From: Alphaproteobacteria bacterium
GTDB taxonomy: Bacteria > Pseudomonadota > Alphaproteobacteria > Micropepsales > Micropepsaceae
Length of the DNA: 64,000 nucleotides
Assembly (NCBI GenBank): GCA_025350465.1
Contig: JANXXU010000041.1
Location: 1-64,000 of the forward strand
Reading direction: 5' to 3'
Program-made: the position numbers and the translations under genes
Notes under the pieces: generated by a model
Seen by the model: only the letters and a program-made list of their open reading frames with translations
Database searches by the model: none
Told to the model about the DNA's origin: nothing
Part shown: positions 6,401-22,402 of the stretch, in pieces
How positions within the stretch are numbered: position 1 is the stretch's first letter
How the letters are laid out: each line of letters opens with the position of its first letter

Positions 6401-7084
6401 ATGTCGTCACGTTCCGATGGCGCGCGTTTTCAATTTAAAGTGGCTACGACGTTTGTCCTCATGTTCATCGTAGGCGGCCTCCCGCTTGACGCTGCGCGAG
6501 CCAACAACAGCGCGGCGCCTGTCGAAGCGTACGTTCAGGAGCATGTCGATGCCGGTGTGAAGATCTTGCAGGACAAATCGAGATCGGAAAACGAAAGGCA
6601 TGCAAAACTTCGGGAGTTTCTGCTGAGCTTGCTCGACCTGAAGCGTATCGCTTTCTTCACGTTAGGATCGTGGCGGCGAAATACAGCACAGACTGACGTG
6701 GATGATTTTGTGGGGGCGTTTCGCGAATTTGCGTTGGCCAACTACGAATCCAAGATTAGCGACTATGGCGGCCAAAGGCTGAAAGTTACAGGGTCGCGGA
6801 AGAACGCGGACAACGATTATGTCGTCACCGCGAACCTGGTTGACCCGGGCGAGACCAACGCCGGCGAACTTCCGCTCGAAGTCGACCTACGTGTGCTCGA
6901 CGAGAACGGCAAGTTTGTGGTTGTCGACGCCAGCGTCGAGGGGATTTGGCTCGCCCTTACTCAGCGCGCGGACTATTCAGGCTTCCTCAGTCAACACAAC
7001 GGAGACGTCAAGGCGCTTGCAGGACTGATTCGGCAGCGTGCCGCGATGTTGCTGGCGGGGGGGGCTGCGACGAAGTCGAATTGA
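6401..7084 (+). CDS. hpnM: MlaC-family periplasmic lipid-binding protein, hopanoid-associated HpnM
   Basis: The product is 227 residues. A signal sequence covers roughly residues 14-36 (VATTFVLMFIVGGLPLDAARA), followed by an MlaC/Ttg2D-type domain with LDLKRIAFFTLGSWRR, FREFALANYESKI and SVEGIWLALTQRADY. MlaC proteins shuttle lipids across the periplasm. The hopanoid version is called HpnM. Assignment as HpnM rests on this fold plus its place at the head of a hopanoid locus. It converges on the mlaA gene, and the hopanoid genes continue beyond. A general MlaC is the alternative. hpnN, the usual RND partner, is not in the window. Confidence 0.75.
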   Translation: MSSRSDGARFQFKVATTFVLMFIVGGLPLDAARANNSAAPVEAYVQEHVDAGVKILQDKSRSENERHAKLREFLLSLLDLKRIAFFTLGSWRRNTAQTDVDDFVGAFREFALANYESKISDYGGQRLKVTGSRKNADNDYVVTANLVDPGETNAGELPLEVDLRVLDENGKFVVVDASVEGIWLALTQRADYSGFLSQHNGDVKALAGLIRQRAAMLLAGGAATKSN

Positions 7085-7150
7085 CCGCGTTTACAAGGTA
7101 AAGCAGGGCATCGGTGTCCGGCCGCGGTGCCTCGAGCCCACCAGGCAAAC

Positions 7151-7909
7151 TTAGAATTCGGGAAGCGGCTCGGAATTCGGTTTGCCGTTTCGGATCTCGT
7201 TTTCACGATGCTGGCGATAAAGGCTTCGCATGGCCGCGTAGTAATCTATCGAGCCGCGTTCGATAGCGTCGAGGGCATCGATATTCCTGGACCGGACATC
7301 GATGAACCCTCCGACAATGCGCAAATTCGACCAAAGCCATTTGTTGCGATATTTTGCGTAAGTCAGTGGATCGAGAAAGACATCCACAATCATCCCGACG
7401 GTATCGCGCGGGTTGCTTGGCCCGAAGAGGGGCAGAACCAAATACGGACCTTCGCCGACGCCATAGACGGCGAGCGTCTCGCCGAAGTCTTCGGTGTGCT
7501 CCGGTACGTCCATTTCGCTGGCGACGTCGACCAACCCGCCAATACCGACCGTTGTATTGATGGCAACGCGAGCAAACGTATGGGCCGCCTGATCGAACTC
7601 GCCTTGCAACACGTCATTGGCGAAGGTCACCGGCAGGTCGAGGTTGCTCAGAAAATTATGTACGCCGGTGCGAGCGAATTCCGGAACGACTTCGACGTAG
7701 GCTTTTGCGACCGGCAACGCGACTGCTTTGTCGAGAGCGTCGTTGGCGTCGAAGACTGCGCGGTTCATCGGCTCTAAGGGATCGTTTTCGCGCTGAGATT
7801 CAGTGTCGGCGCAAGCGGTCAGAGCGACGCTGAACACGAGCGCCGCAAGGTGCCACCTTGGATTGAGGCGCCGCAAGACGCGCCCGGGCTGACGCACCGA
7901 ACGAAACAC
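7151..7909 (-). CDS. mlaA: MlaA/VacJ outer-membrane lipoprotein
   Basis: The product is 252 residues. A lipobox (VALTAC, Cys33) ends the signal peptide. The MlaA signatures follow: DPLEPMNRAVFDAND, then VGIGGLVDVASEMDV and LFGPSNPRDTVG. MlaA is an outer-membrane lipoprotein that passes mislocalised lipids to MlaC. It converges on the MlaC-like hpnM, 66 bases apart, and is divergent from hpnI. No mlaD, mlaE or mlaF is in the window, so this half of the pathway must use components encoded elsewhere. A role in moving hopanoids to the outer membrane is inference. Confidence 0.88.
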   Translation of the reverse strand: MFRSVRQPGRVLRRLNPRWHLAALVFSVALTACADTESQRENDPLEPMNRAVFDANDALDKAVALPVAKAYVEVVPEFARTGVHNFLSNLDLPVTFANDVLQGEFDQAAHTFARVAINTTVGIGGLVDVASEMDVPEHTEDFGETLAVYGVGEGPYLVLPLFGPSNPRDTVGMIVDVFLDPLTYAKYRNKWLWSNLRIVGGFIDVRSRNIDALDAIERGSIDYYAAMRSLYRQHRENEIRNGKPNSEPLPEF

Positions 7910-8116: not shown

Positions 8117-9262
8117 TTGTTGCTTTTTCTTTGGTATGCGGGCGCGGCCTGCTTGGTTCTTGCTGTTTGCGGCGGCGTCTACGCCATCGCAACGGCAATG
8201 GCGGCGATGCGCGTCCTTAGCTGCGATGCTCCGGTCTTGTCCGTGACGCCCCCGGCCGTAACGATTCTAAAACCGCTTCGAGGCGAAGGCCCGACGTTGG
8301 AAACAGCGTTGGTCAGCTTTTTGTCGCAAGCTTACGCAGGACCGGTGCAAGTTATATTCGGGCTGCATGGCGCTGATGATCCGGCCTACGCGATGGCGCT
8401 GCGGTTAAAGCAGCGGTTCTCCGCCCACGACATCGTCGTTGTCGCCGATTCACATCTTCATGGACCCAATCACAAGATATCGAATGTGATTAATATGATG
8501 CCGCACGCGAAGCACGACCTCCTCGTGCTGGCCGACGCTGATATCAAGGTTCTGCCGGGCTATTTGGACGCGGTAGTCGGGGCGCTCTCGCAGGGTGGGG
8601 TCGGCGTGGTGTCTTGCTTTTACGGCGGAGCGGGATTGACGAACGGTTGGTCGCGCCTGGCCGCAATGGGCGTCAGCTATCGGTTCTTGCCCAATGTTCT
8701 TGTCGGTGTCGCAAGCCGCCTCGCGCAACCCTGTTTCGGATCCACAATTGCCCTGACGCGCGAAACCCTGGCTGCAATCGGCGGCTTTGAGGCGTTTGTA
8801 TCCTTTCTCGCCGATGATTTTGAGATCGGCCGCGCCGTACGCGCGAAAGGACTTGCTGTGGCATTTCCCCAACTGGTTGTGCAACACGGCTGTACGGAAG
8901 GCAGTCTCCGGGAACTCGTTCGTCACGAAATGCGCTGGGCGCGTACCATTCGTACGGTTGAGCCTCTAGGTTATGTGGGAACCTTGATCACCTATGGCGT
9001 TCCACTTGGGCTGATCGGGGCCGCTCTGCAAGGGTTGCCAGTTTCCAGCCTGTTGGTGCTGGCGGCCGTTCTCGCTTCCCAATGCTTCCTAAAGACGCGT
9101 ATGGATCAGCTTGCGGGGACGAGTGCCGGGCCGTTATGGATGTTGCCGGCGCGGGATATCTTGTCATTTGGTATCTTCATCGCGTCGTTATTCGGGAATG
9201 AGGTCGACTGGGCCGGGCACCGCCTGCGCGTTAGCAGGAACGGTACGATGTCGCGAATCTAG
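8117..9262 (+). CDS. hpnI: Hopanoid glycosyltransferase HpnI (family 2, ceramide-glucosyltransferase-like)
   Basis: The product is 381 residues. An N-terminal membrane helix is followed by a GT2 catalytic domain and two or three C-terminal helices. Motifs seen are LKPLRGEGP, the DADIKV aspartates, the LADDFEIG acceptor-site motif and RHEMRW, which fits the (Q/R)xxRW signature of processive GT2 enzymes. HpnI adds N-acetylglucosamine to bacteriohopanetetrol, the first of three steps (HpnI, HpnK, HpnJ) toward the cyclitol ether head group. The start is TTG, preceded by AGGGAGAA. hpnJ follows after 9 bases. It heads the long forward hopanoid run. Confidence 0.9.
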   Translation: MLLFLWYAGAACLVLAVCGGVYAIATAMAAMRVLSCDAPVLSVTPPAVTILKPLRGEGPTLETALVSFLSQAYAGPVQVIFGLHGADDPAYAMALRLKQRFSAHDIVVVADSHLHGPNHKISNVINMMPHAKHDLLVLADADIKVLPGYLDAVVGALSQGGVGVVSCFYGGAGLTNGWSRLAAMGVSYRFLPNVLVGVASRLAQPCFGSTIALTRETLAAIGGFEAFVSFLADDFEIGRAVRAKGLAVAFPQLVVQHGCTEGSLRELVRHEMRWARTIRTVEPLGYVGTLITYGVPLGLIGAALQGLPVSSLLVLAAVLASQCFLKTRMDQLAGTSAGPLWMLPARDILSFGIFIASLFGNEVDWAGHRLRVSRNGTMSRI

Positions 9263-9271
9263 GATCAGACA

Positions 9272-10702
9272 ATGCTTCGAACGCTATTCCTTCAAGCCCC
9301 GTCCTTCGATGGTTTCGACGGCGGCGCCGGCTCGCGCTATCAAGCCAAACGAGAGATCAAGTCATTTTGGTTTCCGACTTGGCTCGCGCAGCCCGCGGCG
9401 TTGGTTGAAAACTCCAAGCTAATCGATGCGCCGCCGCACAAGCAGCGACTTGCCGACGTCCTCGCGCAAGCGAAAGATTTCGACCACGTCGTGCTTCACA
9501 CGTCCACGCCGTCATTCAAGTCCGATGTCAAAGTCGTCGAAGCGTTGAAAGCGGAAAATCCGAAGCTTCTCGTCGGTATGATCGGCGCCAAAGTTGCCGT
9601 CAACGCGGAGGGATCTTTACGCGAGGGCGCGGTAATCGACTACGTCGCGCGCAACGAGTTCGACTTTACGGTCAAGGATGTCGCGGACGAAATTCCCTTG
9701 AGAGAGATCAAGGGCCTCAGCTTTCGCACGTCGAGAGACGCTATCGTGCACAACGAAGAGCGGCCGACGGTCGAGAACATGGACACGCTGCCCTTCGTGA
9801 CGCCGGTCTATAAGCGCGATCTGAGGATCGAGAACTACTTCATCGGCTATCTGAAGCATCCCTATATATCGCTTTACACGGGGCGCGGCTGCAAATCGCG
9901 CTGCACGTTCTGTTTGTGGCCGCAGACAGTGGGCGGCCACCGCTACCGCACGCGCAGCGTTGGCCACGTCATCGAGGAGATCAAATATGCGAAGGCGGCG
10001 TTTCCGCAGGTGAAGGAATTCTTCTTCGACGACGACACCTTTACCGACGATCCGTTGCGCGCGGAGGCGATCGCCAGGGAGCTTGGAAAGCTTGGCGTGA
10101 CCTGGTCATGCAACGCCAAAGCGAATGTGCGGCGCGAAACGCTAAAGGTCTTGAAGGACGGCGGTTTGCGGCTGCTGTTGGTCGGATACGAATCCGGCAA
10201 TCAGCAAATCCTGCACAACATCAAGAAGGGCGTGCTCGTCGACGTGGCGGAGCGGTTCACGCGCGATTGTCACGAGTTGGGAATCCAGATTCACGGGACC
10301 TTCATTTTGGGGCTACCGGGCGAGACCACGGACACAATTCGCCAAACGGTCGAATTCGCCAAACGCATAAATCCGCACACGATCCAGGTTTCACTCGCGG
10401 CGCCTTATCCCGGCACGTTCCTCTACAATCAGGCGGTGCAGAACGGCTGGCTCGACGCCGCGAATGCAGAACTCGTCGACGAGCACGGCATCCAGGTGGC
10501 GCCGCTGCACTATCCGCATTTGTCTCACAAACAGATTTTCGATTCGCTTGAGGATTTCTACAAGCAGTTCTACTTCCGGCCGAGCAAGATCACGGCGATC
10601 GTCGGCGAAATGATGCGCTCCAGCGACATGATGAAACGACGCCTCCGAGAGGGTGTGGAGTTCTTTCAGTTCTTGCGCGACCGGCGCAATCACGCGGCTT
10701 GA
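9272..10702 (+). CDS. hpnJ: Hopanoid radical SAM protein HpnJ
   Basis: The product is 476 residues. An N-terminal B12-binding-like domain (about residues 1-190) precedes a radical SAM core. The cluster-binding motif CKSRCTFC has Cys207, Cys211 and Cys214. Further core features are FFFDDDTFTDD, LLVGYESGNQQ and GTFILGLPGET. HpnJ contracts the deacetylated sugar ring to the five-membered cyclitol ether of hopanoids. The gene lies between hpnI and hpnK, which encode the other two steps, and its TGA overlaps the TTG start of hpnK. Confidence 0.92.
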   Translation: MLRTLFLQAPSFDGFDGGAGSRYQAKREIKSFWFPTWLAQPAALVENSKLIDAPPHKQRLADVLAQAKDFDHVVLHTSTPSFKSDVKVVEALKAENPKLLVGMIGAKVAVNAEGSLREGAVIDYVARNEFDFTVKDVADEIPLREIKGLSFRTSRDAIVHNEERPTVENMDTLPFVTPVYKRDLRIENYFIGYLKHPYISLYTGRGCKSRCTFCLWPQTVGGHRYRTRSVGHVIEEIKYAKAAFPQVKEFFFDDDTFTDDPLRAEAIARELGKLGVTWSCNAKANVRRETLKVLKDGGLRLLLVGYESGNQQILHNIKKGVLVDVAERFTRDCHELGIQIHGTFILGLPGETTDTIRQTVEFAKRINPHTIQVSLAAPYPGTFLYNQAVQNGWLDAANAELVDEHGIQVAPLHYPHLSHKQIFDSLEDFYKQFYFRPSKITAIVGEMMRSSDMMKRRLREGVEFFQFLRDRRNHAA

Positions 10703-11589
10703 ACGCGCTGACTCGACGAACAGGAAAGAAGCGGTTGGTCGTCACCGCGGATGATTTCGGCGCCGCGGTCGAAGTCAACGACGCGGTCGAGGCGGCGCAT
10801 CGTCACGGCATTTTGACTGCGGCGAGCTTGATGGTTGCAGCTCCTGCGACCGGGGACGCCGTCGTCCGCGCCAAGGCCATGCCAAAATTGCGCGTGGGTC
10901 TGCACATCGTTCTCGTCGACGGCCGGCCACTGCTGCCGGCGTCGGCGATTCCCGATCTGGTCGATGAGGCGGGCAACTTTCGCGACGATATGGTGAAGGT
11001 CGGCACCGCGATATTTTTCCGGCGCGAGGTTCGGCGCCAACTCGATGCCGAAATTGCTGCCCAGTTTGACGCGTTCAGGGCGACGGGCCTGACGCTCGAT
11101 CACGTCAATACACATAAGCACTTCCATCTGCATCCGACGATCGCGACAGCGATCCTGAGAATTGGCGGCGCTTACGGCATGCGTGCGATGCGTGCGCCGA
11201 TCGAGCCGCGTGGCGTTTTGAGGGCGGCGGAACCAGGTTCGGCGACGGGGCCCGCTTATATCACTGGGCCGTGGGCGCGGCTGTTGCGTTATCGATTGCG
11301 CAGGGCCGGCCTTTGCCTTCCGGATTCGGTGTTCGGCCTAGCTTGGTCCGGCGCGATGACTGCGATGCGGTTGCGCGGTCTCATCGCGAACCTTCCCGAA
11401 GGCCTCTCGGAGATCTACCTCCATCCGGCAACGACCGGCGGATTTGCAGGCTCGGCCCGCAACTATCAGTATGCGGCGGAGCTGGCTGCGCTGACCGATG
11501 CGAGTGTGGCCAGAGCCGCCAGTGATTCTGGAGCGGAACTCGGAGGTTTCGCGGACTTCCAGGGACCCCGCCTTCGTATGGATGGCTAG
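10699..11589 (+). CDS. hpnK: Hopanoid deacetylase HpnK (ChbG/YdjC family)
   Basis: The product is 296 residues. The metal-binding ADDFG motif is near residue 17, and HVNTHKHFHLHP near residue 135 carries the YdjC-family histidines. HpnK removes the acetyl group from N-acetylglucosaminyl bacteriohopanetetrol before the HpnJ ring contraction. The start is TTG at 10699, overlapping the hpnJ stop (TTGA), which suggests coupled translation. The length fits the family. Confidence 0.9.
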   Translation: MNALTRRTGKKRLVVTADDFGAAVEVNDAVEAAHRHGILTAASLMVAAPATGDAVVRAKAMPKLRVGLHIVLVDGRPLLPASAIPDLVDEAGNFRDDMVKVGTAIFFRREVRRQLDAEIAAQFDAFRATGLTLDHVNTHKHFHLHPTIATAILRIGGAYGMRAMRAPIEPRGVLRAAEPGSATGPAYITGPWARLLRYRLRRAGLCLPDSVFGLAWSGAMTAMRLRGLIANLPEGLSEIYLHPATTGGFAGSARNYQYAAELAALTDASVARAASDSGAELGGFADFQGPRLRMDG

Positions 11590-11645: not shown

Positions 11646-12563
11646 ATGTGGACCGGCATGAACGCGACTGTGACCCTCTCCGAATCGCAATTAGACGCGG
11701 GAGATCCCGTCGCGCCGGGACCAATCACGATTGGCGGCGACGAGCACAAGCGTCTGTTTTGCCGAATGCTTCTGACGACATTCGACCGTTACAAACCGGC
11801 GGTGATCGATTGGCCCGATCTCGAACCTGAGGCACGCGCACGTTTGACGTCGTTGCCGATCTGGAACATCGCCGTCCAGACGGAGGGCAAAGCCGGTTTG
11901 CGCGTGGCGAGCTACGGCGAGCAGGTAAGCGATCCCGTGCTGAAGCGGGCCATAGAACTCAACGCCTTTGAGGAGCGCCGGCACAAGAGCGTGCTGCACA
12001 ATATGGTCCAGGCTTATGGCATCGGTTTGGAGCCCGAGCCGGAATATCTCAAGCCGAAGGATGCGGAATGGGCCTTCATGGTGACCGGGTACAGCGAATG
12101 TATCGACAGTTTCTTCGCCTTCGGTCTGTTTGAGACCGCGAAGCGCTCCGGGTTTTTTCCGCCGGCCCTGGTTGACACCTTCGAGCCCGTGATGCGCGAA
12201 GAAGGCCGCCACATCCTTTTCTTCGTGAATTGGGTCGCGTGGTACCGCCGCAATATGCCGCTTTGGCGAAGACCTTGGTTCGCCGCAAAGATTGTCGGCG
12301 TTTGGGCTTTTTTGATTTGGGAGCGGATCGGACTCGCACGAGACGTCGCCGGCGGACCTGCGCAAGACAATAATTTCACGGTGAATGGTGCCAAAGACCT
12401 CGGCATCGACATCTCCGCGGCGGCGCTGATGGACGTTTGCCTTTCAGAGAACGACCGGCGATTGGAAATCTACGACAAGCGGCTGTTGCGGCCGAATTTC
12501 GTGCCACGCCTTGTTCGGCTGGCGCGTCGTTTCATGCGTTCACCCAAGCTCGCTGTCTCTTGA
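11646..12563 (+). CDS. Diiron ferritin-like protein embedded in the hopanoid operon
   Basis: The 305-residue protein shows the four-helix diiron pattern: Glu80 (QTEGKAG), Glu110-x-x-His113 (EERRH), Glu151 (YSECID) and Glu186-x-x-His189 (EEGRH). Two ExxH motifs plus two lone Glu are the ligand set of ferritin-like oxidases and ribonucleotide-reductase R2-type proteins. A hydrophobic stretch around residues 205-230 may anchor it to the membrane. It sits between hpnK and hpnL on the same strand, 56 bases after hpnK and 22 before hpnL. It is not one of the lettered hpn genes I know. An oxidase or desaturase role on a hopanoid or its precursor is inference. ATG 11658 is an alternative start. Confidence 0.8.
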   Translation: MWTGMNATVTLSESQLDAGDPVAPGPITIGGDEHKRLFCRMLLTTFDRYKPAVIDWPDLEPEARARLTSLPIWNIAVQTEGKAGLRVASYGEQVSDPVLKRAIELNAFEERRHKSVLHNMVQAYGIGLEPEPEYLKPKDAEWAFMVTGYSECIDSFFAFGLFETAKRSGFFPPALVDTFEPVMREEGRHILFFVNWVAWYRRNMPLWRRPWFAAKIVGVWAFLIWERIGLARDVAGGPAQDNNFTVNGAKDLGIDISAAALMDVCLSENDRRLEIYDKRLLRPNFVPRLVRLARRFMRSPKLAVS

Positions 12564-12585: not shown

Positions 12586-13578
12586 ATGAAGCCGGGCGCA
12601 ATATTTGTGGCGATCGCAAGTCTGTGCGGTGCCACATACATCATCTTTCGTGTCGGCTTCGCGTCGATCGCCGGCGCCGCGCTGTCTGTTGGGTGGGGCG
12701 GTTTCGCTTTGCTGATCTTGTACGGCGTGGCGACGATCATGCTACTCGGCATCGCCTGGTTTACTCTCGTACCGCCGTATTCTTGGAGCAGCGCCGTCAC
12801 CTTTTGTTGGAGCAGAGCCGCGCGAGATTCCGCAGGCGAGGTGCTTCCGTTCTCCCAGATCGGCGGATTGGTGATAGGCGCTCGCGCGGCTATCTTGCGC
12901 GGCGTCGCAACCGGCACTGTTTTTGGCTCGACCGTCGTGGACGTCACCATCGAGATGATCGCGCAGATCGGCTTCATCGTTTTGGGATTGACCATCTTCG
13001 CCGTCCACCTTCGCGCTCCGGCGATGGACACCACCATCGTCAAAACGGCGCTCGTCGGCCTGCTCGTCGCAATTGTTTTGATCGGCGCCTTTTTTATGTT
13101 CCAGCGGCGTGGCCTTGCGCTGCTTGAACGAATCGCCCAACGCTTCCTGCCTTCCGCAGCAGCGAGTGCTGCCGCAATCGACGAAGCGGTGAGCCGAATT
13201 CATGGCGATCCGCCGCGCATGCTTATTGCCTTCGCGCTGCATTTCCTTGGTTGGCTCGCGAGCGCCTTCGGCCTTTGGCTGGCCTTGGCCCTGATCAACG
13301 CGCCGCTTTCATTTGCCGATGCCATCGCGGTCGAAAGTATTTTGTGCGCCGCGCGTAGCGCCGCCGTCTTTGTCCCAGCCGCGATCGGCGTTCAGGAGGC
13401 GGGCTATGCGGTGCTCATGCCGCTCTTCGGACTGCCGCCCGAAACCGGCGTCGCTGTTTCGTTGCTCAAGCGGGCGCGCGAGATCGCCATCGGCGCGCCT
13501 GTGTTGCTGAGTTGGCAGATGGCCGAGGGGAGGCGCGTTACGGCAGCCCGATCGGACACACTTACGGACAACCGATGA
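12586..13578 (+). CDS. hpnL: Hopanoid-associated membrane protein HpnL
   Basis: The product is 330 residues with about eight membrane segments, of the lysylphosphatidylglycerol synthase transmembrane (UPF0104) type. Recognisable parts are an early FSQIGGLVIGARA segment and VPAAIGVQEAGYAVL near the C-terminus, the usual flippase-like motifs of this family. The family name HpnL comes from its constant place in hopanoid loci; its exact job is not settled, and transport or flipping is the usual guess. ATG 12586 is chosen over an upstream in-frame start that would overlap the ferritin-like gene. Its TGA overlaps the hpnA start. Confidence 0.85.
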   Translation: MKPGAIFVAIASLCGATYIIFRVGFASIAGAALSVGWGGFALLILYGVATIMLLGIAWFTLVPPYSWSSAVTFCWSRAARDSAGEVLPFSQIGGLVIGARAAILRGVATGTVFGSTVVDVTIEMIAQIGFIVLGLTIFAVHLRAPAMDTTIVKTALVGLLVAIVLIGAFFMFQRRGLALLERIAQRFLPSAAASAAAIDEAVSRIHGDPPRMLIAFALHFLGWLASAFGLWLALALINAPLSFADAIAVESILCAARSAAVFVPAAIGVQEAGYAVLMPLFGLPPETGVAVSLLKRAREIAIGAPVLLSWQMAEGRRVTAARSDTLTDNR

Positions 13579-18701: not shown

Positions 18702-20642
18702 ATGGATCAGGTGGTGAGGATCGACCCGACGGATGTGGCGGCACTGATCGCAGGCGCAACCGATGCGCTGGTGAAGCAGCAGCGGAATGACGGCCATTGG
18801 GTTTTCGAACTCGAGGCCGATTCAACAATTCCATCCGAGTATGTGCTGCTCGTTCATTATCTCGGTGAGCCCGCGGATCTCGAGCTCGAGCGAAAGATCG
18901 GCAACTATTTGCGCCACCGGCAGGGCGATCACGGTGGATGGCCGCTCTATCGTGATGGCGCCTTTGACCTCAGCGCTACGGTGAAGGCCTATTTCGCGCT
19001 GAAGATGATCGGCGACTTGCCAGACGCCCCGCATATGGCGCGCGCACGGGAGGCAATTCTGGCGCGCGGCGGCGCGGTAAAGGCGAATGTCTTCACCCGC
19101 ATTCAGCTTGCTCTCTATGGCGAAACGTCGTGGGACAACACGCCCACGGTGCCTGCCGAACTGATCCTCCTGCCGCGCTGGTTTCCCATCCATCTCTCCA
19201 AGATGTCGTACTGGGCGCGCACCGTGATCGTGCCGCTGCTCGTGCTGCAAGCCCTCAAGCCGCTTGCACGCAATGCGCGCGCAATCCATGTGCCGGAGTT
19301 ATTTGCGCCGAAGGGTGAGCACACGCCGCAACGCGCACCGCATCAAAATCGTTACTGGGCGGCCTTCTTCGCCGCGCTCGATTGGTTGCTGAAGCGTGTC
19401 GATCCGGTGTGGCCGAAAGCATTGCGCAAGCGCGCGATCGACCGCTGTTTGAAATTCGTGAAGGAGCGGCTGAACGGCGAGGATGGGCTAGGGGCTATTT
19501 ATCCGGCGATCGCTAATAGCGTGATGATGCTCGATGCCCTTGGGTATCCGGCAAGTCATCCCGACCGCGCGATCGCGCGCCGCGCGATCGAGAAGCTGCT
19601 CATCGTCGGGGACGACGAGGCCTATTGTCAGCCATGCGTCTCGCCGGTGTGGGACACGGCGCTTGCTTGTCATGCCTTGATGGAAGCCATCGGCGAGACA
19701 AGCGGTGAGGTCGCGCGTGGATTGGAATGGCTGAAGCCGCGTCAGGTGCTCGATGTCGACGGCGACTGGGCGGAAGAACGGCGCGGCGTGCGGCCCGGCG
19801 GCTGGGCGTTTCAGTACAACAACGCGCACTATCCCGATCTCGATGACACGGCGGTGGTGGTGATGGCGCTGGATCGTGCGCGCGCAAGCCCGCAAGGCGC
19901 GGATTCCAAAGGTGCGATCGACCGCGGGCGCGAATGGGTGGAGGGGCTGCAAAGTAAGAATGGCGGCTGGGGCGCCTTCGACGCCGACAACGTCTATCAC
20001 TATCTGAACAACATCCCGTTCGCCGATCACGGTGCGTTGCTCGATCCGCCGACGGAGGATGTGACGGGCCGCTGTGTCGGTATGTTGGCGCAGCTGGGCG
20101 AACCCCTGGACAGCGTACGCATGCAGGCGGCGATCGGATATCTGCAGCGCTCACAACTCAAAGACGGAAGTTGGTTCGGGCGCTGGGGCGTGAATTACAT
20201 CTACGGGACCTGGTCTGTTCTGGCGGGCCTAAATGCGGCGCGTATCGATCCGCAAACGCCGATGGTCCGCACGGCGGTGGATTGGTTGGTGTCCATTCAA
20301 AACGACGACGGAGGTTGGGGCGAGAGCTGCGACAGCTATCGGCTCGACTACAAAGGCTATCAACCGGCGCCCTCGACTGCTTCGCAGACGGCGTGGGCGC
20401 TTTTGGGCCTGATGGCGGCGGGCGAAGTCGATCACCCCGCCGTGGCGCGCGGCATCGTCTATCTCAAGGAAACACAGCAAGAAGACGGATTGTGGGGCCA
20501 GGAGCGATACACCGGCGGCGGATTTCCACGGGTCTTCTATCTGCGCTATCACGGCTATCCAAAATTCTTTCCGCTCTGGGCGGTCGCGCGCTATCGAAAT
20601 CTGAAGGCCAGCAATTCGCGGCGCGTCGCGTATGGGCTTTAG
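18702..20642 (+). CDS. shc: Squalene-hopene cyclase (HpnF)
   Basis: The product is 646 residues, the usual length of the family. The catalytic acid motif is DLDDTA, with Asp379, Asp381 and Asp382. Several QW repeats are visible, for example NGGWGAFD, DGSWFGRWG, DDGGWGESC and DGLWGQE. The enzyme is a monotopic inner-membrane protein that cyclises squalene to hopene and hopanol in one step. It starts two bases after the hpnE stop and is followed eight bases later by hpnG. Confidence 0.96.
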   Translation: MDQVVRIDPTDVAALIAGATDALVKQQRNDGHWVFELEADSTIPSEYVLLVHYLGEPADLELERKIGNYLRHRQGDHGGWPLYRDGAFDLSATVKAYFALKMIGDLPDAPHMARAREAILARGGAVKANVFTRIQLALYGETSWDNTPTVPAELILLPRWFPIHLSKMSYWARTVIVPLLVLQALKPLARNARAIHVPELFAPKGEHTPQRAPHQNRYWAAFFAALDWLLKRVDPVWPKALRKRAIDRCLKFVKERLNGEDGLGAIYPAIANSVMMLDALGYPASHPDRAIARRAIEKLLIVGDDEAYCQPCVSPVWDTALACHALMEAIGETSGEVARGLEWLKPRQVLDVDGDWAEERRGVRPGGWAFQYNNAHYPDLDDTAVVVMALDRARASPQGADSKGAIDRGREWVEGLQSKNGGWGAFDADNVYHYLNNIPFADHGALLDPPTEDVTGRCVGMLAQLGEPLDSVRMQAAIGYLQRSQLKDGSWFGRWGVNYIYGTWSVLAGLNAARIDPQTPMVRTAVDWLVSIQNDDGGWGESCDSYRLDYKGYQPAPSTASQTAWALLGLMAAGEVDHPAVARGIVYLKETQQEDGLWGQERYTGGGFPRVFYLRYHGYPKFFPLWAVARYRNLKASNSRRVAYGL

Positions 20643-20650
20643 CTAAGCCG

Positions 20651-21310
20651 ATGCTCGTCCTTGTCACCGGCATGAAGCGCGAGGCGAGGATCGTCGCGCG
20701 GGGAAATCAGGTCGTCGTGGCGGGCGGAGACAATTCGAGCCTCGCAGACAGGATTGCGGCGGTGGCGGCGAACGCGCGCGCTCTTCTCAGCATCGGCATT
20801 GGCGGCGGTCTGGCGCCGGATCTTCCGGTCGGCGCAGCTGTGATCGCAACGGAAATTGTGTGGGGCGGGGAGCGTTTGCCGACAAATGCAGTATGGCAGG
20901 GCGCGCTGGCGAAGTGCTTGCCCGGCGCGATTGCCGGCGCGATCGCGGGCAGCAACAGGATCGTCGTCACACCCGCCGCGAAATCGGTCTTGCATCGCGA
21001 GACGGGCGCGCTTCTTGCCGACATGGAATCCCATATCGCAAGCCGCTTTGCCGCGGAACGAAAATTACCCTTTGCGGCTCTGCGCGTGATATCGGACGAC
21101 GCGACGCACAGCCTGCCGCCGGCGGTGCATGGCGCGATCGGACCGGACGGCGACCTCAGGCTCGGCGCTGTGCTGCGTTCGATCGCCGGCAATCCGGCGC
21201 AGATTCCAGAGTTAATCCGCACGGCACGCCGCACGGATCGCGCGATGGTAGAACTTCGCCGCTGCTCAGACCTTCTCGGGAACGGCTTTGCGTGCCCGTA
21301 TCTCGCCTAG
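20651..21310 (+). CDS. hpnG: Hopanoid phosphorylase HpnG
   Basis: The product is 219 residues of the purine/uridine phosphorylase fold: LVTGMKREARI at the start, SIGIGGGLAPDLPVG, and DMESHIASRFA, where the Met-Glu pair contacts ribose. HpnG releases adenine from adenosyl hopane, giving ribosyl hopane. The start at 20651 has no good Shine-Dalgarno, so reinitiation after shc is likely. Its 3' end overlaps the oppositely read hpnH by 45 bases, joining the consecutive pathway steps head to head. Confidence 0.9.
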   Translation: MLVLVTGMKREARIVARGNQVVVAGGDNSSLADRIAAVAANARALLSIGIGGGLAPDLPVGAAVIATEIVWGGERLPTNAVWQGALAKCLPGAIAGAIAGSNRIVVTPAAKSVLHRETGALLADMESHIASRFAAERKLPFAALRVISDDATHSLPPAVHGAIGPDGDLRLGAVLRSIAGNPAQIPELIRTARRTDRAMVELRRCSDLLGNGFACPYLA

Positions 21311-22402
21311 TTGGCGCTCGACGATGCGAGAGTGGAAATGTTCCGCCGGCCGTTGGCGATCGAGAGGGATGTCAGGCGCCATCGGGCCGGACGTTTTCAC
21401 GCCGCGACTGGCAATCGGGATAAGCTTCCACGGATGTTTCACCGAATCGGCAACGGCGGTGCCTTCGAAACCGCAATGAACCATGCAATTCGCGCACTTC
21501 TCGTAGTTCCCGACGCCATATTTCTGCCACTCCGTGCCTTCCATCAGTTCCTTGAAGGTCTTGGCATAGCCTTCGCCGAGCAGATAGCAGGGCTTCTGCC
21601 AGCCGAAGACACAGCGTAGCGGCATGCTCCACGGCGTGCATTCATAGGTCTGGTTGCCGGCGAGGAAATCAAGAAACAGGTCAGACTGCGTGAAGGACCA
21701 TTTCTTCCCGCCGTCGCCGCGAGCGAAAATGTCCCGGAACAGATTCTTCGTGCGCTCGCGGTTGAGGAAATGTTCCTGGTCCGGTGCGCGTTCGTAGGCA
21801 TAGCCGGGCGAAATCGTGATGCCGTCGACACCTAGCGCCGTCATTTCGTCGAAGAAGGCCGCCGTGCGCGCCGCGTCCGTTCCGTGAAACAGCGTGCAAT
21901 TGATCTGCGTGCGAAAGCCCTTGGCTTTCGCCAGCTTGATGGCGTCCACGGCCTTCTCGTACACGCCGTCGAGGCAAACGGACTTGTCGTGCATGCCTTT
22001 GTCGCCGTCGAGGTGGATCGACCACGAGAAATTCGGGTGCGGTTCGTAGTCGTCGATTTTCTTGGCGAGCAGGAGGGCGTTGGTGCAGAGGATCACGAAT
22101 TTTTCACGCTCGATGAAGCCTCTAACGATTTTCGGCATCTCGCGATGAAGAAGGGGCTCGCCGCCGGCGATCGACACGACCGGCGTTCCGCATTCCTCTA
22201 TGGCCTCCATGCATTGGTCGTAAGTGAGGCGCTGGTTGAGGATCTCATCGGGGTAGTCGATCTTGCCGCAACCCGCGCATGCCAAATTGCAGCGGAATAG
22301 AGGTTCCAGCATCAAGACGATCGGGTAGCGCTTGCGGCCCAGCAAGTGCTGCTTGACGACGTACGCGCCGACACGCGCTGCTTGCTTCAAGGGGATAGCC
22401 AC
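21266..22402 (-). CDS. hpnH: Adenosyl-hopene transferase HpnH (radical SAM)
   Basis: The product is 378 residues. The radical SAM motif CNLACAGC has Cys38, Cys42 and Cys45. SIAGGEPLLH and a C-terminal cysteine set (ECTPW, CANCMVHCGFEG) follow, the last being typical of SPASM-like HpnH tails. HpnH adds the 5'-deoxyadenosyl group to hopene, opening synthesis of C35 hopanoids. It is read toward hpnG and overlaps it. ispH lies just upstream on the same strand, so the two may be co-transcribed. Confidence 0.95.
   Translation of the reverse strand: MAIPLKQAARVGAYVVKQHLLGRKRYPIVLMLEPLFRCNLACAGCGKIDYPDEILNQRLTYDQCMEAIEECGTPVVSIAGGEPLLHREMPKIVRGFIEREKFVILCTNALLLAKKIDDYEPHPNFSWSIHLDGDKGMHDKSVCLDGVYEKAVDAIKLAKAKGFRTQINCTLFHGTDAARTAAFFDEMTALGVDGITISPGYAYERAPDQEHFLNRERTKNLFRDIFARGDGGKKWSFTQSDLFLDFLAGNQTYECTPWSMPLRCVFGWQKPCYLLGEGYAKTFKELMEGTEWQKYGVGNYEKCANCMVHCGFEGTAVADSVKHPWKLIPIASRGVKTSGPMAPDIPLDRQRPAEHFHSRIVERQLGEIRARKAVPEKV

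Follow-up and report, generated by a model that had tools for sequence, protein, structure and literature searches.

Gene content of the hopanoid locus

The window analysed here, a stretch of 64,000 nucleotides from the Micropepsaceae contig JANXXU010000041.1, carries a cluster of hopanoid biosynthesis (hpn) genes (Table 1). HpnI, HpnJ and HpnK are encoded upstream of a gene that bears no hpn letter, and HpnL, HpnA, HpnB, HpnC and HpnD downstream of it; all of them score above their NCBIfam cut-offs. Past HpnD follow HpnE, squalene-hopene cyclase (SHC) and HpnG, with HpnH and IspH encoded on the opposite strand. The product of the unlettered gene is hereafter called A. Its location between hpnK and hpnL on the operon strand, pointed out in an earlier note on this DNA, is borne out by the scores of both neighbours. 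Most aligned orthologues start at residue 5 or later, which makes the second of the two starts given in Table 1 the likelier one. The gene is separated from hpnK by 56 bases and from the first hpnL ATG by 22 bases (the hpnL start was taken as the first in-frame ATG past the A gene), and these gaps are compatible with a single transcript.

Table 1. Features of the hopanoid locus and predicted metal ligands of protein A (positions in the window)
Feature	Position	Strand	Basis
MlaC-family gene at the hpnM position	6401..7084	+	52 bits, HpnM cut-off 160
216-aa ORF that follows the hpnM-like gene and precedes hpnI	7127..7777	+	no Pfam or NCBIfam match
hpnI (glycosyltransferase)	8117..9262	+	TIGR03472, 401 bits, cut-off 310
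hpnJ (radical SAM)	9272..10702	+	TIGR03471, 812 bits, cut-off 578
hpnK (deacetylase), directly 5' of the A gene	10699..11589	+	TIGR03473, 376 bits, cut-off 233
gene for the predicted A-type diiron protein (305 aa from the listed start)	11646..12563	+	ORF list; likelier start ATG 11658
Glu80 codon, first predicted ligand	11883..11885	+	alignment
Glu110-x-x-His113, first ExxH	11973..11984	+	alignment
Glu151 codon, predicted ligand	12096..12098	+	alignment
Glu186-x-x-His189, second ExxH	12201..12212	+	alignment
hpnL (membrane protein), directly 3' of the A gene	12586..13578	+	TIGR03476, 249 bits, cut-off 196
SHC	18702..20642	+	TIGR01507, 764 bits
hpnH (adenosyl-hopene transferase), co-occurrence partner of the family	21266..22402	-	NCBIfam match, co-occurrence

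Ligand conservation and predicted fold

The earlier note had read an E, ExxH, E, ExxH ligand set in protein A, and the residues are exactly those it named (E80, E110/H113, E151 and E186/H189). In a first alignment set these six ligands are invariant in 30 A-type proteins and in seven proteins of a second type, B, described below. In a wider set they are kept in 66 of 67 proteins, the exception being a fragment of a broken Caballeronia gene. All six are also intact in each of 238 non-redundant relatives drawn from 356 places, a set made up of matches of at least 230 codons, so that broken and partial copies are left out. Such conservation is far beyond chance, and the loss of ExxH residues in orthologues, which the earlier note had named as evidence against its reading, did not occur.

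The window protein matches no Pfam or NCBIfam family at an E-value of 0.01. With a looser limit Rubrerythrin becomes its only Pfam match, at 16.1 bits and below the cut-off of 22.8. Weak matches to AurF (25 members), Rubrerythrin (19) and Ferritin_2 (10) recur across 48 members of the family. The best E-value for any of the three in the members tested is 1.3e-4 (Ferritin_2). FA_desaturase_2, the Pfam family of acyl-ACP desaturases, is absent from the match lists of 17 members (9 families) and of 48 members (16 families), lists from which the HMMER filters discard most matches above E 0.1. A search of the PDB with the single protein sequence gave chance-level matches only (best E 0.09), and a profile search gave a MiaE-like hydroxylase at E 0.0034. 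No paper naming the family that comprises A and B was found in the open-licence literature.

Protein A was modelled with AlphaFold2 from 48 sequences (pLDDT 88.6, pTM 0.88). The model of A is all-helical, an R2-like bundle in which the ligands are spread over four consecutive long helices (residues 72-91, 97-124, 140-168 and 173-202). The lists of similar folds are headed by ribonucleotide reductase R2 and the R2-like ligand-binding oxidases (R2lox); the top match has a Z-score of 14.5 and an rmsd of 3.9 over 232 residues, values of a kind that helical models reach by arrangement alone, for which reason the ligand pattern weighs more than Z. Foldseek gave a best E-value of 0.0057 and none at or below 0.001. 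The model of a B-type protein is alike (pLDDT 89.8; Z 15.3, rmsd 3.5, 226 residues). Judged by the ligand pattern on four predicted helices, A is probably a member of the ferritin-like/R2-like diiron carboxylate superfamily.

Association with the hopanoid pathway

Among 386 alphaproteobacterial genomes the family is present in 29 (E ≤ 1e-10) and HpnH in 98. All 29 family-positive genomes possess HpnH (p 1.6e-19 when genomes are counted and 3e-12 when genera are, uncorrected for phylogeny and obtained with a profile in which hpn-linked members predominate), and the lack of co-occurrence with hopanoid genes that would have spoken against the earlier note was thus not encountered. The family is absent from 69 of the 98 HpnH-positive genomes. 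The co-occurrence with hpnK that the same note had proposed to check does not hold across the class: HpnK was found in 11 of the 29 family-positive genomes versus 12 of 51 negative ones (p 0.20, not significant), the latter being the scored part of the 69 HpnH-positive, family-negative genomes. The family thus tracks the HpnH side-chain pathway rather than the cyclitol head group, and its independence of HpnK points to the hopane core or BHT as the part that is changed.

Of the 30 best loci in the window's family (the window counted among them), 29 have an hpn gene on the piece examined; the exception is L012. A scan of named genomes returned 596 stretches, 577 of which were confirmed, and among the best 80 of these 577 by similarity to a B-type protein a strong hpn match is present on the piece in 29 (in 27 of the 66 pieces that are 9 kb or longer, and in 9 of the 20 cyanobacterial pieces). 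The linkage recurs in other lineages: genome G979 has the order hpnI-J-K-(A-type)-L, G1027 has the run hpnJ/I/H/ispH/hpnA-(A-type), and A is linked to hpn genes in Cupriavidus metallidurans and Caballeronia as well. Linkage of the family to hpn genes is therefore common, not universal. Taken with the ligand set, these data make it very probable that A is an oxidase of the hopanoid pathway.

Two paralogous clades and their distribution

In a tree of 193 non-redundant members, read from its upper and lower parts, the midpoint root separates clade A, to which the window protein belongs, from clade B; identity between the two is ∼35%. This second paralogue, together with the link to unsaturated hopanoids developed below, is an addition to what the earlier note had proposed. 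In the window's order the family occurs in 58 of 96 genomes, many of which have A and B arranged head to tail in the interval from hpnK to hpnL. Of the 11 genomes in the window's genus, several of which are incomplete, only the window genome showed the A gene, and the same is true of hpnK. Across the named B loci, which are the best 80 of the 577 confirmed stretches, a strong A match is on the same piece in 51 and directly before B in 49, and in three genomes (L040, L080 and L247) A and B lie within one stop-free frame.

Members of clade A come from acetic acid bacteria and Burkholderiales, among others. In the acetic acid bacteria the A-B pair lies apart from any hpn gene on the pieces examined, and both genes are present in named species of Acetobacter, Gluconobacter, Gluconacetobacter, Neokomagataea and Acidomonas; for the Acetobacteraceae (f24, recognised by its Acidisphaera and Acidomonas genomes) the family was counted in 62 of 120 genomes. 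Thirteen Burkholderiales plasmid or chromid records, the search being confined to these replicons, contain A only, and a B query matches the same places; one of the A genes is on the Burkholderia cenocepacia record NZ_CP091013.1. Three whole genomes of f201, which we guess to be Burkholderiaceae, have one A-like copy each (60-63% identity). Six cyanobacterial genomes searched whole possess a single copy each, of the B type, and no A, and two cyanobacterial MAGs have two B copies (L148; L108 with L156). In several cyanobacteria the B gene is located between hpnJ and hpnK (L119, L148, L150 and L153), beside them (L162) or near hpnH (L149 and L154). In a thinner sample taken across the phylum, the family is present in 14 of 348 genomes.

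Several individual loci may be recorded here. The B genes beside hpnJ/hpnK at L119, L148, L150, L153 and L162 are candidates for a cyanobacterial C-30 pentol hydroxylase. L058 and L079 (f77) belong to a more distant third group, ∼40% identical to A and with the ligands kept. L249, from the small genome G719, has two equally scoring A copies, with matches at 1701 and 15207, 13.5 kb apart. At L063, plasmid p3 of Caballeronia zhejiangensis, an A-type gene is split in two frames between a hpnL-like gene and hpnJ; the broken gene carries no annotation in its record.

Comparison with reported hopanoid compositions

The genes that desaturate BHPDs 'are currently unknown' according to a 2025 survey (PMC12583986), which describes the genes for pentols and hexols likewise and reports no candidates for them near hpn clusters. 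The survey proposes a 'sterol desaturase' encoded outside the hpn cluster, the match of which to unsaturation it calls 'not 1:1'. Three of the 54 species in its Table 3 could be matched by name to the genomes searched here, and all three carry both A and B: Gluconacetobacter diazotrophicus PA1 5 (49% unsaturated BHPDs, 6% pentol plus hexol), Asaia siamensis (58% and 15%) and Enhydrobacter aerosaccus (1% and 77%). The same table gives 82% unsaturation for Acetobacter and 56% for Gluconobacter, in species other than those searched, and its Acetobacteraceae comprise strong producers of unsaturated BHPDs as well as species with none. For other strains of B. cenocepacia, BHT cyclitol ether has been reported along with an unsaturated form, annotated as delta-6 rather than proven to be so, and with some pentol cyclitol ether (PMC8560942). 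In the account of a paper on Baltic cyanobacteria, the C-30,32,33,34,35-pentol had previously been observed in cyanobacteria only, and the compounds listed there for cyanobacteria are BHT, pentol and cyclitol ether, with no unsaturated BHP among them (PMC5642901).

At the level of orders, Rhodospirillales are the only ones with hexols in the survey and include species making delta-6, delta-11 and delta-6,11 compounds (PMC12583986). By our count of Table 3, 13 of the 20 Rhodospirillales and 6 of the 10 Sphingomonadales make pentols or hexols, Hyphomicrobiales have a single species that does so, at 1%, and unsaturation in Sphingomonadales is at most 1% (PMC12583986). The 'sterol desaturase' gene is reported from about two thirds of Rhodospirillales, half of Sphingomonadales and no Hyphomicrobiales (PMC12583986). 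This distribution resembles that of pentols and hexols more than that of unsaturation and suggests, as a match at group level, that the protein may be a C-31 hydroxylase and not the desaturase.

In f63, which we guess to be the sphingomonads, the A/B family is present in 7 of 298 genomes, all within one genus of 41; if the guess is right, the pentols of sphingomonads would be due to another enzyme than A or B. Afipia broomeae has 43% unsaturated BHPDs (PMC12583986). The family was found in none of the 198 genomes of f155, guessed to be the Bradyrhizobium family and perhaps to include Afipia, an empty result that, lacking any positive genome, carries no weight on its own. If Afipia does belong to f155, the two figures point either to other desaturases or to a mismatch between culture and genome. 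According to the survey, hpnI, hpnJ and hpnK were not found in Afipia or Skermanella despite measured cyclitol ethers (PMC12583986), so that culture and genome may indeed differ. Overall, acetic acid bacteria and B. cenocepacia fit the reading of A as a desaturase, and Enhydrobacter and possibly Afipia fit it badly.

Possible function of A and B

The oxygen-dependent change of hopanoids that the earlier note had suggested is well supported as a functional class, in view of the ligands, the predicted fold, the hpn linkage and the presence of HpnH in every positive genome. A change of the head group, which it had offered alongside, is unlikely since HpnK is missing from 18 of the 29 genomes that carry the family. 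From the observed ligands, predicted fold, operon place and HpnH co-occurrence we infer oxygen use, substrate, desaturation and bond position as follows. A is probably a soluble R2-like diiron oxidase in a family of hopanoid-tailoring enzymes, and it would most likely desaturate the pentacyclic ring of bacteriohopanepolyols, with delta-6 as the probable position of the double bond. A diferrous site formed by E80, E110/H113, E151 and E186/H189 would bind O2 and give rise to a high-valent species, which would abstract two hydrogens from neighbouring ring carbons. Acyl-ACP desaturases remove two hydrogens from acyl chains by such a mechanism. The substrate may be BHT or an earlier product of HpnH, in which case the ring change would be alike in BHT, BHT cyclitol ether and pentols. 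A general ferredoxin or reductase is the proposed electron donor, since none was recognised in the cluster. Among flanking proteins tested at other loci (including AccA, SecA, ClpP, DUF488, CtaG and an NMT1-like protein), no ferredoxin or reductase was recognised either. The only neighbour that recurs is alanine-dehydrogenase-like (judged by the L069 copy) and lies directly 3' of A in 3 of 19 loci (L069, L070 and L073, unlinked).

Ring desaturation fits best with the sharing of A by Burkholderia and acetic acid bacteria, the independence of HpnK and the diiron site, and we put the chance that A is an O2-dependent hopanoid ring desaturase, probably delta-6, at about even. B, the sister oxidase, is perhaps a C-30 hydroxylase, which is the best fit to its presence without A in cyanobacteria and to its occurrence in hexol-making Rhodospirillales. 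A full division of labour, with A as delta-6 desaturase, B as C-30 hydroxylase (making the cyanobacterial pentol and contributing to the hexols of Rhodospirillales) and the 'sterol desaturase' as C-31 hydroxylase, is a doubtful scheme that we offer tentatively.

The same diiron chemistry could also hydroxylate, and A might instead act on the side chain at C-31 or C-30 to make bacteriohopanepentol or -hexol, the double bonds then coming from another enzyme. Acetic acid bacteria make pentols and hexols too (PMC12583986), Enhydrobacter, with A and B, has far more of these than of unsaturated compounds, and B. cenocepacia is reported to make a pentol cyclitol ether (PMC8560942) for which A might be responsible as hydroxylase, the 13 Burkholderiales plasmid or chromid records having A only. 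The pentols of 6 of 10 Sphingomonadales are hard to reconcile with this, given how seldom the family occurs in the presumed sphingomonads of f63, and B is the better candidate for a hydroxylase, being the only type in the six whole-searched cyanobacteria, a group that makes the C-30 pentol; we therefore regard a hydroxylase role for A as rather unlikely. It is a good deal less probable that both proteins desaturate the ring, A at delta-6 and B at delta-11, with tandem or fused pairs yielding the delta-6,11 diene. The head-to-tail arrangement in 49 of the best 80 of 577 loci (A being with B in 51), the single frames of L040, L080 and L247 and the three kinds of unsaturated compound known from Rhodospirillales species (PMC12583986) would agree with such a pairing, but cyanobacteria have B without A and no unsaturated BHP is listed for them (PMC5642901), and Enhydrobacter has B and 1% unsaturation (PMC12583986).

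The earlier note had also considered that A protects radical SAM enzymes from oxygen. HpnH, which accompanies the family in every one of the 29 positive genomes, belongs to the radical SAM enzymes, and the weak similarity to Rubrerythrin and Ferritin_2 would suit protection or iron storage without any action on hopanoids. This reading fares poorly against the 69 of 98 HpnH-positive genomes that do without the family and against the existence of two diverged paralogues with ligands kept in each, arranged in tandem or fused. The best listed fold matches, moreover, are R2-type oxidases, although lists of this kind do not exclude ferritins. We consider protection or storage very improbable and retain ring desaturation by A as the preferred reading.

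Hopanoids are widely used bacterial biomarkers (PMC12583986), and cold raises their unsaturation in one methanotroph (PMC6460317). A concrete family with two separable paralogues makes the question of the genes for unsaturated, penta- and hexafunctional hopanoids directly testable. If the assignments of A, B and the 'sterol desaturase' are true, the three would explain a large part of the oxidations known on the rings and side chains of BHPDs from proteobacteria and cyanobacteria. If O2 is required, unsaturated, penta- and hexafunctional hopanoids could mark oxygen in sediments.

Relationship to known systems

The 'sterol desaturase family protein' (PMC12583986, PMC6460317) has the same proposed role as A, namely desaturation of the hopanoid ring. 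It differs from A in that the Methylovulum protein is described as an integral-membrane protein with histidine motifs (PMC6460317) and in that the alphaproteobacterial gene lies outside the hpn cluster (PMC12583986), unlike the A gene of the window.

R2lox and the R2 subunit of class I ribonucleotide reductase, which lead the fold lists for the A model, have E, ExxH, E and ExxH on four helices, the pattern predicted for A. The first five matches to the A model have Z-scores of 14.4-14.5 and rmsd values of 3.8-3.9 over 221-232 residues; Foldseek gives a probability of 1.00 and the best E-value of 0.0057 mentioned above. R2lox contains a Mn/Fe cofactor, a Tyr-Val cross-link and a fatty-acid ligand. 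Identity to A in the listed alignments is 7-17%, with no match at the sequence level, and A differs in its hopanoid context.

AcsF, the aerobic Mg-protoporphyrin monomethyl ester cyclase, is a diiron enzyme that oxidises a side-chain methylene. Of four B-type members compared with it, three show a weak local match (best E 1.5e-4, at 21 bits and far below the cut-off of 391), and the three A-type members compared show none.

Soluble acyl-ACP desaturases belong to the superfamily proposed for A, use the same metal ligands and desaturate a lipid with O2 at a soluble diiron site. Stearoyl-ACP desaturase (1afr) ranks 42nd in the Foldseek comparison with the A model (E 0.029). A differs from these enzymes in having no Pfam desaturase match and in its proposed substrate, which would be a pentacyclic ring rather than an acyl-ACP.
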